64,000 nt of DNA from Alphaproteobacteria bacterium. Its GTDB lineage: Bacteria > Planctomycetota > Phycisphaerae > UBA1845. Below, one piece after another: positions 16,576 through 24,415 of this stretch (position 1 is its first letter; the number at the start of each line of letters is the position of its first letter). The DNA is taken from NCBI GenBank assembly GCA_028285105.1, contig JANQQE010000014.1, positions 124,001-188,000 on the forward strand, given 5' to 3'. The translations under genes were made by a program, and so were the position numbers. The notes beneath the pieces were generated by a model. It was given only the letters and a program-made list of their open reading frames with translations, was not told where the DNA came from and did no database searches.

Positions 16576-17757
16576 TTATGAACGTCGCCCGTTGGCCAGA
16601 TGCGGTTTGCGCCTTCCCACGATCAGTTGATCGCCCTTGACGCGCCGCTTGCGAAACCCGAGGAGGTGAAAAATCTCCAAGGCGTACCACTTGGCCCGCG
16701 ATCGGTTAATCACCAGGTTGTCTTTCAAGGTCGGATGGCGTCTGACACCGGGCAGCCAATGGACAAACGCATCGGCGCGCATGCGTCGCAAAACGCTCGA
16801 CACCTTTAACCAACCAACTTTGACTTCCCGACCCACGAAGAACCCGTCGTTACCCAAGCCCTGATAAAACGGCAGCAAAATGTAACCGTCCTCCGGACAA
16901 TGAATGGGGCCATTTCGATCGTGAGCAAGCACTTCGCCCTCGCGAACGGCTTGGAAGTTGCGGTATCCCGGATTCATCTGAAACCCGTCACCGTCCTTGA
17001 TTGGATGACGGTGACACACTTCAACGACTGGCGGAAGGTCTCGCGATGACGCCTCAAGAATCGCCCGCGATTTTGCAGTCTCTGGCGCATCCTCTTCCCC
17101 GATCATCTGAGCCGACACCAATGCCATCCAGATAATCGCTTCGATGCATTCGATCGATCGAGGGTCGTCGTGTCTGCCGCCTTCGATTCCAACGGTGACG
17201 TGACCGAGCGAATTCACGTAGTCGAGTACCACTCCGTCGATGTGTTCTTCCAACCCCAGAATCAATGGCATGTTGAGTCGCGATGCAAACCGCCGATTGG
17301 GCAGCGTGTCGCCAAAGAGTGCAAAAGGCGCGCCGTCGGCAGACATGGTGTGCATGTCGAGCATGAACACCTCGTCGTTGGCGTCATCGAATACCTGATG
17401 CAGCGTAGAAAGCAGCGCCAACTGCTCACGATCTTCGACCGATGGCGGCATATCGCGATGCGTTCCATTGATTCCGGAGATGCGTTCGGACATCCAAATG
17501 CGATTGAAATCGACATCGACGTGCCGAACGCCCTGGCGAAGGGCTTCGATGTTTCCAATCACCCCAACCATGCGCCCGCGAATTGGAATCCGCCGCGCGC
17601 TTAACACATCCAGTACGCGGCGGGCTGCATGAATCCCGGCAGGTTCGTTTCCATGAACACCGCCAAGACAAACAAGCGTTGGCCCCTTGCGTCCTTGATC
17701 GTAAGAACCGATCAGCCGTTGGTTGGTTGCCCCCTCCGGGCTATTGTCGCGAATCAT
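16576..17757 (-). CDS. AstE/AspA-family zinc hydrolase (succinylglutamate desuccinylase/aspartoacylase-like)
   Basis: A 393-residue M14-like amidohydrolase/carboxypeptidase. Zinc-binding motifs are GGVHGNEPAG near residue 35 (HxxE) and MLDMHTMSADG near residue 130 (the third His ligand). Later GIEGGRHDD supplies a likely catalytic glutamate. Residues ~280-330 form the beta-rich C-terminal module seen in AstE/AspA proteins. The family removes acyl or amino-acid groups from small amides; the true substrate is unknown. The start is 12 bp after the stop of the GCS2-CBS ligase gene, so they form a tight ligase-hydrolase operon. The ~60-residue basic tail (KRRVKGDQLIVGRRKPHL) exceeds the usual family length. 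Confidence 0.82.
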   Translation of the reverse strand: MIRDNSPEGATNQRLIGSYDQGRKGPTLVCLGGVHGNEPAGIHAARRVLDVLSARRIPIRGRMVGVIGNIEALRQGVRHVDVDFNRIWMSERISGINGTHRDMPPSVEDREQLALLSTLHQVFDDANDEVFMLDMHTMSADGAPFALFGDTLPNRRFASRLNMPLILGLEEHIDGVVLDYVNSLGHVTVGIEGGRHDDPRSIECIEAIIWMALVSAQMIGEEDAPETAKSRAILEASSRDLPPVVEVCHRHPIKDGDGFQMNPGYRNFQAVREGEVLAHDRNGPIHCPEDGYILLPFYQGLGNDGFFVGREVKVGWLKVSSVLRRMRADAFVHWLPGVRRHPTLKDNLVINRSRAKWYALEIFHLLGFRKRRVKGDQLIVGRRKPHLANGRRS

Positions 17758-17769
17758 GTTCGTTGTTGG

Positions 17770-19686
17770 TTATTCTGCCAATTCTTTCACAAACAGTTCT
17801 GCGGCGACTTCGAGGAAATCGTGATCGGACACGATGCCCACAAGTTTGCCTTCTTTGACCACCGGCAGACAGGACACTTTCTTGTCCAGCATCACCCGGA
17901 TCGCCTCCAGTGTCTCGGTCTGCGGTGTGACGGTGATCGGATCGCGCTTCATCACGGTGCCGACCGCAATCGATTCGGAATTGGCGTCGTTGCGTTGGTT
18001 GCCGATCAGTCGAAGAATCTGGCGATACGTCACCAGACCGACGAGTTGGTGTTGGCTGTCTTCAACGGGTACATGGCGCACGTCCTGCCAGACCATCATG
18101 TTGGCGACCAGGTCCACCGAGTCGTCTTCGTTGACGGTAAACAGATCGGTTGTCATGTATTGCTCGACGCGACGGTAACCGCGCTTGACGGAATCCGAGC
18201 GGTCGAGGCTGGCGAGTGGCCAGGTGTGAACGGGATCGCCCTGCCACTGGCGGTCGAGAGCCGTCCGCGTCACCGAACCCAATCGCACTGCGGCAGTCGC
18301 TTCGCCCTTCATCTTGGCAAGCGACTGAATCAACCACTGCGATCCGGTTCTTCCGGTGCTGATGCGCCCTTCGATGACATTCAGGTATCGGTTGATATCG
18401 CGCGAATCAATCTTCGCCGATTTTAGTCCCTGGCGTGCCAACGGGAGCAACTGTTTGCTCAGTACATCCTGAGCGGATACGGGTTGCTCTTGACCGATCC
18501 ACGTAAATTGCGCGTGCATGCCCAATCGAGCAGCCGCTAGAAAATTCGACTTGGCGTCGTCGAATTCCATGTGTTGGGTAATGTCGCCGTACTCATCGGC
18601 GACGCCAATCATCAATCCGAACCAAAACGCCGCATTGGCGATCGAATCGAGAACGGTCGGACCCGCCGGCAGCACACGATTCTCGATTCGCAGGTGCGGT
18701 TTGTTGTCGGAGATGCCATAGCACGGACGATTCCAACGATATACCGTACTGTTGTGCAATCGAAGCGACTGCAATTTCGGGATGCGTCCTTCCGCCATTG
18801 CATCAAACGGATCTTCATGCGAATCGGCACCGAACAAAACGCGGAATCGGGCGATATCTTCGCGGAAGATTTCCAGCACGGATTCTTTGAGCCACTGTTG
18901 ACCGAAGCTGACACGTGCTTTGCGTTCGTCTGCCACGTCTGTCGTGGTTCGGGTATCGACGGCTTGTTGAAACAACCCGATGCGCGTCTCGCGCCAGAGG
19001 CGCTTTCCAAAAAGAAGCGGTGAATTCGTCGCTACCGCAAGTGCTGGACCGGCGACGGCTTGGGCGATGTTGTAACGACGCGCAAATTCCTGCGGAGAAA
19101 CCTGAAAGTGAACCTGAAAGCTGGTGTTGCACGCTTCAAGCATCACAGAGTTTTGTTTGAGGATCAGTTCATCGACGCCGGTCAATCGAAACTCGTAATC
19201 GCCACCCCGCAAACGATTGAGCGCATCGTTGAGTGCGTAGTAGCGCGGCATCGGTGCCATCCAATCGAGGGTGGTGTGGGTCTGCGAAAGGGTCGGCAGA
19301 ATTCCGGTGAGCAACACGTCGGCACCGCATGACTGTGCGGCTTTGCGGGCTTTGAGGATCATCTCGTTGAGCTGCTTTTCCATCTGCCGAAGGCAGTCGC
19401 TGCCGAAGACGATCGGGTCGAGATTGCATTCAATATTGAACTTCGCGAGTTCCGTGGTGAAGTGCTCGTCACCAAGGCAATCGAGGACGTCCATGCTGTT
19501 CGGTGAGGGTTGGCCGTCAGAATCGATCAGGACCATTTCCTGCTCGCCACCGATGCGGCGAACGTCGGATTCGATCTCGTCATTTTCGATCATCTGCTCG
19601 AGGGCGCGCACGTCGGCTAACAGATGTTTCATGAAAGCGCGAAGGTGTTCACCATCGGAGTCGGCTTTTAGGTCCTGCGTGCCCAT
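17770..19686 (-). CDS. GCS2-family carboxylate-amine ligase fused to two CBS domains
   Basis: A 638-residue protein. Residues ~45-400 match the glutamate-cysteine ligase type 2 fold: GGEQEMVLID metal/ATP-site start, ELAKFNIECNLDPI, DVLLTGILPTLS, NTSFQVHFQV, and the VAGPALAVATNSPLLFGKRLWRETRI stretch (described in parts). GCS2 enzymes join the gamma-carboxyl of glutamate, or related acids, to an amine using ATP. Residues ~507-566 and ~577-632 are two CBS domains (VEQYMTTDLFTV..., VGTVMKRDPITV...), which in other proteins sense adenine nucleotides or ions. The fusion suggests a ligase gated by energy status; that is inference. A plausible promoter lies 58 bp upstream, and the AstE/AspA-like hydrolase follows 12 bp downstream. 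Confidence 0.85.
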   Translation of the reverse strand: MGTQDLKADSDGEHLRAFMKHLLADVRALEQMIENDEIESDVRRIGGEQEMVLIDSDGQPSPNSMDVLDCLGDEHFTTELAKFNIECNLDPIVFGSDCLRQMEKQLNEMILKARKAAQSCGADVLLTGILPTLSQTHTTLDWMAPMPRYYALNDALNRLRGGDYEFRLTGVDELILKQNSVMLEACNTSFQVHFQVSPQEFARRYNIAQAVAGPALAVATNSPLLFGKRLWRETRIGLFQQAVDTRTTTDVADERKARVSFGQQWLKESVLEIFREDIARFRVLFGADSHEDPFDAMAEGRIPKLQSLRLHNSTVYRWNRPCYGISDNKPHLRIENRVLPAGPTVLDSIANAAFWFGLMIGVADEYGDITQHMEFDDAKSNFLAAARLGMHAQFTWIGQEQPVSAQDVLSKQLLPLARQGLKSAKIDSRDINRYLNVIEGRISTGRTGSQWLIQSLAKMKGEATAAVRLGSVTRTALDRQWQGDPVHTWPLASLDRSDSVKRGYRRVEQYMTTDLFTVNEDDSVDLVANMMVWQDVRHVPVEDSQHQLVGLVTYRQILRLIGNQRNDANSESIAVGTVMKRDPITVTPQTETLEAIRVMLDKKVSCLPVVKEGKLVGIVSDHDFLEVAAELFVKELAE

Positions 19687-23325: not shown

Positions 23326-24000
23326 TTAGCGAGGCGCTCCAAATACTTGCGTCCAGTACGACCCGCTCGCCTCGTACCCCACACCGATTTCGGTAAATGC
23401 CGGGTTCATGATATTGGCACAGTGACCGTCGCTGTTCATCCAACCATCGACCACAGCTTCGGGCGTGCGATGACCGGCTGCGATGTTCTCGCCCCACGTT
23501 GACCATTCATAGGTCGAGGCGTCGATACGATCGCCCGGTCCATCGCCATCGGGATTGGTGTGGTCGAAGTAGTTGCGCTGCGACATATCGACAGAGTGGG
23601 CCTGCGCGAGTTCGGTTAACACTGCGTTTGAAACGAGCGGACCTGCGGATGCGTAATCGCCCCGACTACCGCAATTGGCCCCCGATGCCCGTTGCTCATT
23701 GACCAATTCGACGACTTTTGCCGCGTCGCTATTGTCGGCGTCTGAAAAGCCTGCGGTTCCGTTCCCGTCATCCCCAGTCGATTGGTCGCCGCTATCCCCT
23801 GTCGATTCGTTCCGGTTGTTGTCGGAAGTTGTCGGAGAGTCGGGGACGAGATCGTCCAACAGACCACTGAATGCGGTGGTTCCGGCATCGGTGTTGAACC
23901 CATCGACACAGCCACCCCAAGCCCACAACGCCGTCAAGATGGCGCACAAATACCTTGGTTGAATCCCGCCCATTTGTTTTCGCCCTGATCGATTCGTCAC
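23326..24000 (-). CDS. CAP/SCP-domain lipoprotein
   Basis: About 224 residues. The GTG at 24000 is favoured because GAGAG lies 8 bp upstream; the ATG at 23973 is an alternative giving a shorter signal peptide. The lipobox WAWGGC indicates lipid attachment. A Ser/Asp/Gly-rich linker (about residues 35-75) leads to a CAP (cysteine-rich secretory/PR-1) domain. Its hallmarks are AQAHSVDMSQRNYFDH, TWGENIAAGHRTPEAVVDGW, DGHCANIMNPAFTEIGVGY and YWTQVF. The His/Glu cavity residues (H in AQAHS, E in WGENIA, H in DGHC) are kept. Bacterial CAP proteins are extracytoplasmic and of uncertain function. Confidence 0.85.
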   Translation of the reverse strand: MTNRSGRKQMGGIQPRYLCAILTALWAWGGCVDGFNTDAGTTAFSGLLDDLVPDSPTTSDNNRNESTGDSGDQSTGDDGNGTAGFSDADNSDAAKVVELVNEQRASGANCGSRGDYASAGPLVSNAVLTELAQAHSVDMSQRNYFDHTNPDGDGPGDRIDASTYEWSTWGENIAAGHRTPEAVVDGWMNSDGHCANIMNPAFTEIGVGYEASGSYWTQVFGAPR

Positions 24001-24415
24001 GGTTTTTACTCTCTCTTTGCCCAAGTGTCTGCCAAAGGATCGGCTTAGTTGAGTCTACGATTCAAGGGTTTTCGGGCAATCGCATGCGTCACCAACTTCC
24101 CTCCAGCGGTTGGTTTTTCGCTTCATTTGTTGCTTGTATGCGCGCCACCGGCTTGGAATATCGTGTTGAAATAAACCGGTTCAATTTCGTCAATCGTGCG
24201 CAGAAATGTCACGTCTGATAAGCCGATTGCTTCCAAATCGTGTCCGCGTATGCGAACCGCTGCCAAGCGATTGTATCGGCGAATTCTTGTTTGAATCACA
24301 TCGCCTAATTGCGTTAGTATCTGCCTCGGGTGTGTGAAGTTACGAACGTCAGATGACTTGGCTTTGCTGAATCGTGGGCTGGGAATCCCAATGACTTCAG
24401 CAACGGAGAAATCGC
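24001..24415. other. Divergent intergenic region, no gene recognised
   Basis: Between the CAP lipoprotein (minus) and the methyltransferase (plus). Short frames here have no ribosome-binding site or family likeness. A weak ACCAAC...GTTGGT hairpin followed by TTTTT near 24090-24115 on the plus strand has no gene before it, so I do not call it a terminator. Confidence 0.4.

Follow-up and report, generated by a model that had tools for sequence, protein, structure and literature searches.

Organisation of the locus

The window analysed here is a stretch of 64,000 nucleotides of contig JANQQE010000014.1, from a genome placed in the Planctomycetota. A two-gene unit lies on its minus strand, comprising a gene for a 638-aa GCS2-CBS-CBS carboxylate-amine ligase (positions 17770..19686; AlphaFold2 model pLDDT 88.9) followed, after a gap of 12 nt, by a gene for a 393-aa AstE/AspA-type zinc amidohydrolase (16576..17757; pLDDT 87.8). 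The original prediction had described a GCS2 domain fused to two CBS domains 12 nt ahead of a zinc hydrolase with intact HGNE and DMHT motifs, and the open reading frame coordinates and Pfam matches agree with that description. A GGDEF gene lies downstream in convergent orientation, with 26 nt between its stop codon and that of the hydrolase gene, and the nearest same-strand open reading frame upstream of the ligase gene is 219 nt away, so that the unit is delimited to these two genes. Scans for promoters and terminators around them gave results no better than chance. The ligase is the only GCS2 protein in the genome. Within the genus, dN/dS is approximately 0.03-0.08 for both genes, values that are rough since synonymous sites are near saturation, indicating that ligase and hydrolase are both under strong purifying selection. 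Elsewhere in the window, an open reading frame at 23326-24024 (minus strand) resembles, by eye, a secreted CAP/SCP-domain protein.

The ligase and its CBS pair

Searches with the full-length ligase were swamped by CBS domains, and later searches were conducted with the GCS2 part alone. The Pfam GCS2 profile (PF04107) matches residues 46-303 (18778..19551, minus strand) with 28.3 bits against a cut-off of 21, and the fold predicted by AlphaFold2 extends beyond this match to cover residues ~25-483. An alignment of 75 full-length proteins, which span several phyla and have 50-82% identity to the ligase in the window, revealed that G46, E48, E50, E79, E86, H193, R317, R333, E335 and R337 are invariant. 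E48 and E50, in a G-x-E-x-E strand (E48-x-E50, 19537..19545), are presumably the metal-site glutamates of the glutamine synthetase/glutamate-cysteine ligase superfamily. The superfamily histidine strand is represented by QVHFQ (residues 191-195, 19102..19116), in which Q191, H193 and Q195 are invariant. R333-x-E335-x-R337 (18676..18690), followed by P340 and G342-P343 and likewise invariant in all 75 proteins, is a putative ATP/metal-site motif that we take to correspond to the E-x-R of glutamine synthetase. The same catalytic positions are kept in Actinomycetota relatives that have no CBS domains (36-38% identity) and in a haloarchaeal relative (26%). The retention of GCS2 catalytic residues, on which the original prediction depended, is accordingly complete across the alignment.

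A sequence profile search of solved structures returned no GCS2 relative, whereas fold comparison did: the best matches to the ligase model are YbdK structures (1tt4, Z 38.9; 1r8g, Z 38.6), followed by plant glutamate-cysteine ligase (2gwc, Z 33.3, rmsd 2.9 over 381 residues) and yeast GCL (Z 28.0). The model and the alignment together show a glutamine synthetase/glutamate-cysteine ligase fold carrying both the E-x-E and R-x-E-x-R motifs. These features, with the Pfam GCS2 assignment and a fold shared over ~350-380 residues (Z 33-39), are held in common with YbdK, plant and alphaproteobacterial glutamate-cysteine ligases and EgtA. However, the ligase is only 13-19% identical to these proteins in structural alignments, scores below every named NCBIfam cut-off (the closest named model, EgtA, TIGR03444, gives 29.6 bits against 370.8), and is distinguished by its C-terminal CBS pair and partner hydrolase. 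Taken as a whole, the protein is probably a carboxylate-amine ligase, with ATP-dependent amide ligation as the predicted activity.

The CBS pair occupies residues 505-636 (17779..18174, minus strand; Pfam CBS, 93.7 bits in two stretches, above the profile's threshold). The second CBS domain contains the ribose-phosphate motif G617-x-x-T/S620-x-x-D623, in which the glycine is conserved in 75/75 of the aligned proteins, the threonine or serine in 74/75 and the aspartate in 72/75. The first domain retains the glycine and the serine or threonine but has lost the aspartate, which suggests a single canonical nucleotide site in the pair. The same G-x-x-T/S-x-x-D motif is found in CBS-regulated enzymes and in AcuB, and AcuB with bound AMP, ADP or ATP is among the structures closest to the C-terminus of the model. 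Gating of the ligase by adenylates would be a reasonable guess from the CBS homology and the conserved nucleotide-binding motif; other ligands of CBS pairs are SAM and cyclic dinucleotides, and such pairs respond to ionic strength as well. The fusion had been regarded as unusual, which holds for GCS2 proteins at large but not for this subfamily, where a CBS pair is present in all 75 aligned proteins and the fusion is the rule. Two CBS-less Actinomycetota relatives (L143:5911-7389 and L144:5857-7365) are annotated only as glutamate-cysteine ligase family proteins, and no hydrolase gene adjoins them. No GCS2-CBS enzyme was found in the literature searched, although an earlier mention, as in amidoligase surveys, is possible; the ligase would be the first enzyme of the glutamate-cysteine ligase type to be controlled by a fused CBS pair.

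The amidohydrolase

The second protein matches the Pfam AstE_AspA_cat profile (PF24827) with 56.5 bits against a cut-off of 25, and has the HxxE...H zinc site and catalytic glutamate of the family. In an alignment of 25 sequences the following are invariant: HGNE (residues 35-38, 17644..17655), providing zinc ligands H35 and E38; R78...D83-x-N85-R86 (17500..17526); DMHT (residues 134-137, 17347..17358), with zinc ligand H136; and E192 (17182..17184), the probable catalytic base, all encoded on the minus strand. R78, N85 and R86 are presumably the counterparts of R63, N70 and R71 of aspartoacylase, which hold the substrate carboxylate and the transition state, and this correspondence fits an N-acyl amino acid as the substrate.

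The zinc site, the R..D-x-N-R motif, the catalytic glutamate and the predicted fold are all shared with succinylglutamate desuccinylase (AstE), aspartoacylase (AspA) and DoeB (Z 20-23). Conversely, the protein falls short of the equivalog cut-offs of AstE (TIGR03242, 48.6 against 305.65 bits) and aspartoacylase (NF002601, 32.6 against 180 bits), is encoded together with a ligase and, like most members of its group, has an extra C-terminal segment of ~80 residues. Further fold matches include Csd4 (Z 19.8), which cuts a gamma-glutamyl bond in the peptidoglycan tripeptide, and the cyanophycin dipeptide hydrolase CphZ in complex with beta-Asp-Arg (Z 18.8). By analogy, both may serve as precedents for the cleavage of side-chain-acyl amides, a common fold alone being no proof of substrate.

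Conservation of the pairing

A contig scan of bacterial genomes identified at least 264 proteins related to the ligase, and the 80 best matches (GCS2 part 51-83% identical) were examined. These derive from Planctomycetota, Acidobacteriota, Myxococcota, Rhodothermales, Gemmatimonadota, Eisenbacteria, KSB1 and further groups, with metagenome-assembled genomes (MAGs) as the source of many. The gene-neighbourhood survey proposed with the original prediction placed a hydrolase relative immediately after the ligase gene in 29 of the 80 loci, most often overlapping it by 4 nt or separated from it by fewer than 25 nt, across phyla; the pairing is seen also in MAGs of Gemmatimonadota, Eisenbacteria and Myxococcota. 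Clustering of the neighbouring genes found no widely common third gene.

Co-occurrence was assessed in 294 genomes drawn from the phylum of the window, in which the ligase is present in 66, the hydrolase in 49 and both in 46 (Fisher p = 3.8e-34, a value that ignores phylogeny, with more than 10 families involved). The two genes are adjacent in 35 of these 46 genomes and on separate contigs in 11, and the pairwise distances of ligases and hydrolases are correlated (Mantel r 0.76, p 2e-4). The conserved pairing anticipated in related genomes is thus present, and it is lopsided. Only three of the 49 hydrolase genomes lack a ligase (one is 54% complete, one has a weak match and one is 84% complete), whereas 20 of the 66 ligase genomes lack a hydrolase, and none was found anywhere in 20 of 25 tested genomes, mostly of other phyla, in which the ligase locus has no adjacent hydrolase. 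The ligase can do without the hydrolase, whereas the hydrolase nearly always comes with the ligase, a one-sided dependence that is expected if the hydrolase acts on the product of the ligase.

Among 54 loci considered in which no hydrolase adjoins the ligase, three have a gamma-glutamyltranspeptidase gene in its position downstream: L024:4522-6243 (16 nt from the ligase), L044:2454-4169 (50 nt) and L055:9908-11611 (-4 nt). L024 and L055 are from a Planctomycetota and an Acidobacteria MAG, respectively, neither of which contains any hydrolase; the L044 genome has one elsewhere. Three of 54 greatly exceeds what chance would give for a gene with one or a few copies per genome, albeit a small number in which the L044 and L055 enzymes are related. 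The presence of a transpeptidase in this slot is the best hint that the ligase product is a gamma-glutamyl amide. The two kinds of enzyme are not exact equivalents, since the transpeptidase is probably exported, judging by eye from its signal-like N-terminus, whereas the metallohydrolase has no visible signal sequence.

These observations bear also on the notion that each enzyme has a small-molecule substrate of its own, with the operon serving general amino-acid metabolism and the ligase using an acid other than glutamate. The physiological substrates of YbdK-type GCS2 enzymes are, to our knowledge, unclear, and the many genomes with a ligase but no hydrolase would be accommodated readily. 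We nevertheless consider separate substrates unlikely, given the rarity of the hydrolase apart from the ligase (3/49), the tight spacing maintained across phyla, and the transpeptidase found in the same slot.

The original prediction noted that ATP-grasp ligases, known from peptide synthesis loci, are missing here. No ATP-grasp gene adjoins the pair in the window, but in three other genomes of the phylum one lies directly upstream of the ligase, 38-88 nt away (L107:2076-3296, L118:2-1474 and L129:3-1409). Such loci could be taken to mean that the pair is a reduced form of a system for peptide natural products or peptide tags that includes ATP-grasp partners. That origin appears very improbable, as they amount to a handful of ~100 loci, and neither a conserved precursor nor a third gene accompanies the pair.

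Thiol pathways

Glutathione synthetase exceeded its cut-off in only one of 30 ligase genomes, the best score in the genome of the window being 74 bits against a cut-off of 299, and a glutathione route was rejected for most genomes for want of this partner enzyme. A link to bacillithiol was rejected also, as BshC is patchy (10/30 ligase genomes). Given these two distributions, the ligase is not explained by any known thiol pathway.

EgtB is over its cut-off in 13 of the 30 genomes. EgtA makes gamma-glutamylcysteine in mycobacteria (PMC6154287), and an EgtA-like ligase might supply that compound for ergothioneine, with the hydrolase performing a deglutamylation of the mycobacterial EgtC type. 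EgtA being the closest named model to the ligase domain is consistent with this scheme, as is the enrichment of EgtB among those sampled genomes of the phylum that have the ligase (18 of 66, as opposed to 23 of 228 without it, Fisher p 0.001), an association that ignores phylogeny. However, 48 of the 66 ligase genomes have no EgtB, 23 genomes have EgtB without the ligase, EgtB was not noticed beside the ligase in any examined locus, and in the genome of the window none of EgtB, BshC and glutathione synthetase is over its cut-off. Ergothioneine was rejected as a general explanation on account of the weak association and the score of EgtB in the latter genome, and we regard a role of the pair in its synthesis as decidedly improbable.

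The end product of the ligase may be gamma-glutamylcysteine itself or another gamma-glutamyl dipeptide, with cysteine as the first guess for the acceptor. Actinomycetota use mycothiol and often have EgtA; the occurrence of the ligase core in this phylum weakens the case for a dedicated role in gamma-glutamylcysteine formation.

Proposed function

The explanation that we favour, at somewhat better than even confidence, is that the locus encodes a CBS-regulated gamma-glutamyl-amino-acid ligase and a hydrolase for its product. The ligase, with its predicted glutamate-cysteine ligase type 2 fold, would use ATP to couple glutamate, through its gamma-carboxyl, to the amino group of another amino acid, and binding of an adenine nucleotide to the C-terminal CBS pair would tune this activity. 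The zinc amidohydrolase, presumably cytosolic, would split the same gamma-glutamyl amide back to amino acids, such that the make-and-break couple would set the size of a gamma-glutamyl dipeptide pool. The first candidate for this dipeptide is gamma-glutamylcysteine, serving as a thiol or cysteine reserve. Comparative evidence supports, short of proof, a ligase and an amidohydrolase acting on the same bond; a single amide common to both is favoured by the three transpeptidase loci and by the aspartoacylase-type carboxylate-binding residues. To this extent the small-molecule cycle originally envisaged gains ground, while its alternative form, a peptide tag on proteins, found no support. Against our explanation stand the 20 phylum genomes with an unaccompanied ligase and the fact that transpeptidases are common genes, the replacement argument resting on three loci of which L044 belongs to a genome with a hydrolase elsewhere.

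The inferred logic resembles that of the gamma-glutamyl cycle, in which glutamate-cysteine ligase is paired with gamma-glutamyltranspeptidase, an enzyme that recurs in the hydrolase slot. It differs in that a metallohydrolase here replaces the Ntn transpeptidase, mostly in genomes with no glutathione synthetase. The system is best filed as a CBS-fused GCS2 ligase subfamily with a dedicated AspA-type hydrolase.

The product could instead be a gamma-glutamyl or related dipeptide that serves as a compatible solute, with the CBS pair sensing ionic strength or nucleotides and the hydrolase recycling the solute after stress. Halophiles and saline sediments are the source of many loci, single loci have a gene for MscS, TrkH or an Na/H exchanger next to them, and one of the closest folds to that of the hydrolase is DoeB, a deacylase of ectoine catabolism (Z 22.7). 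Yet the ligase family is present also in wastewater and lake MAGs, and transporter neighbours occur at one or two loci each with no transport gene conserved; an osmotic function is, on balance, improbable.

A broader version of the gamma-glutamyl ligase-hydrolase proposal can be advanced only tentatively, with the balance of our judgement against it: that the CBS-gated GCS2 ligase, together with an AspA-type gamma-glutamyl hydrolase encoded with it, forms a widespread, undescribed gamma-glutamyl-amino-acid cycle. This cycle would control a new thiol or reservoir metabolite in Planctomycetota, Gemmatimonadota and further groups mostly devoid of glutathione synthetase. Low-molecular-weight thiols, like gamma-glutamyl metabolites, have been little characterised in Planctomycetota and the phyla near them, and a conserved, readily expressible pair would allow the product to be identified directly.

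Lineage-specific neighbours

Several neighbour clusters are confined to particular lineages. The NAD(P) transhydrogenase beta subunit gene (PntB) lies upstream of the ligase in Acidobacteriota-type loci (L098:2659-4095, L062, L054 and L044). L043 (5560-7832), L028, L050 and L067, labelled Myxococcales or Lujinxingia, have two clustered genes ahead of the ligase, the L043 pair resembling by eye a peptide-type substrate-binding protein and a TlpA-like thioredoxin. Separately, tandem arrays of GshB-like ATP-grasp genes were observed, three at G002:C26:250358-253533 and two at G018:C47:8893-11016, scoring 198-209 bits and hence below the glutathione synthetase cut-off. Finally, a small 4Fe-4S ferredoxin gene follows the ligase in loci of Bacteroidota/Rhodothermales (L036:2028-2375, L046, L056, L065 and L085).
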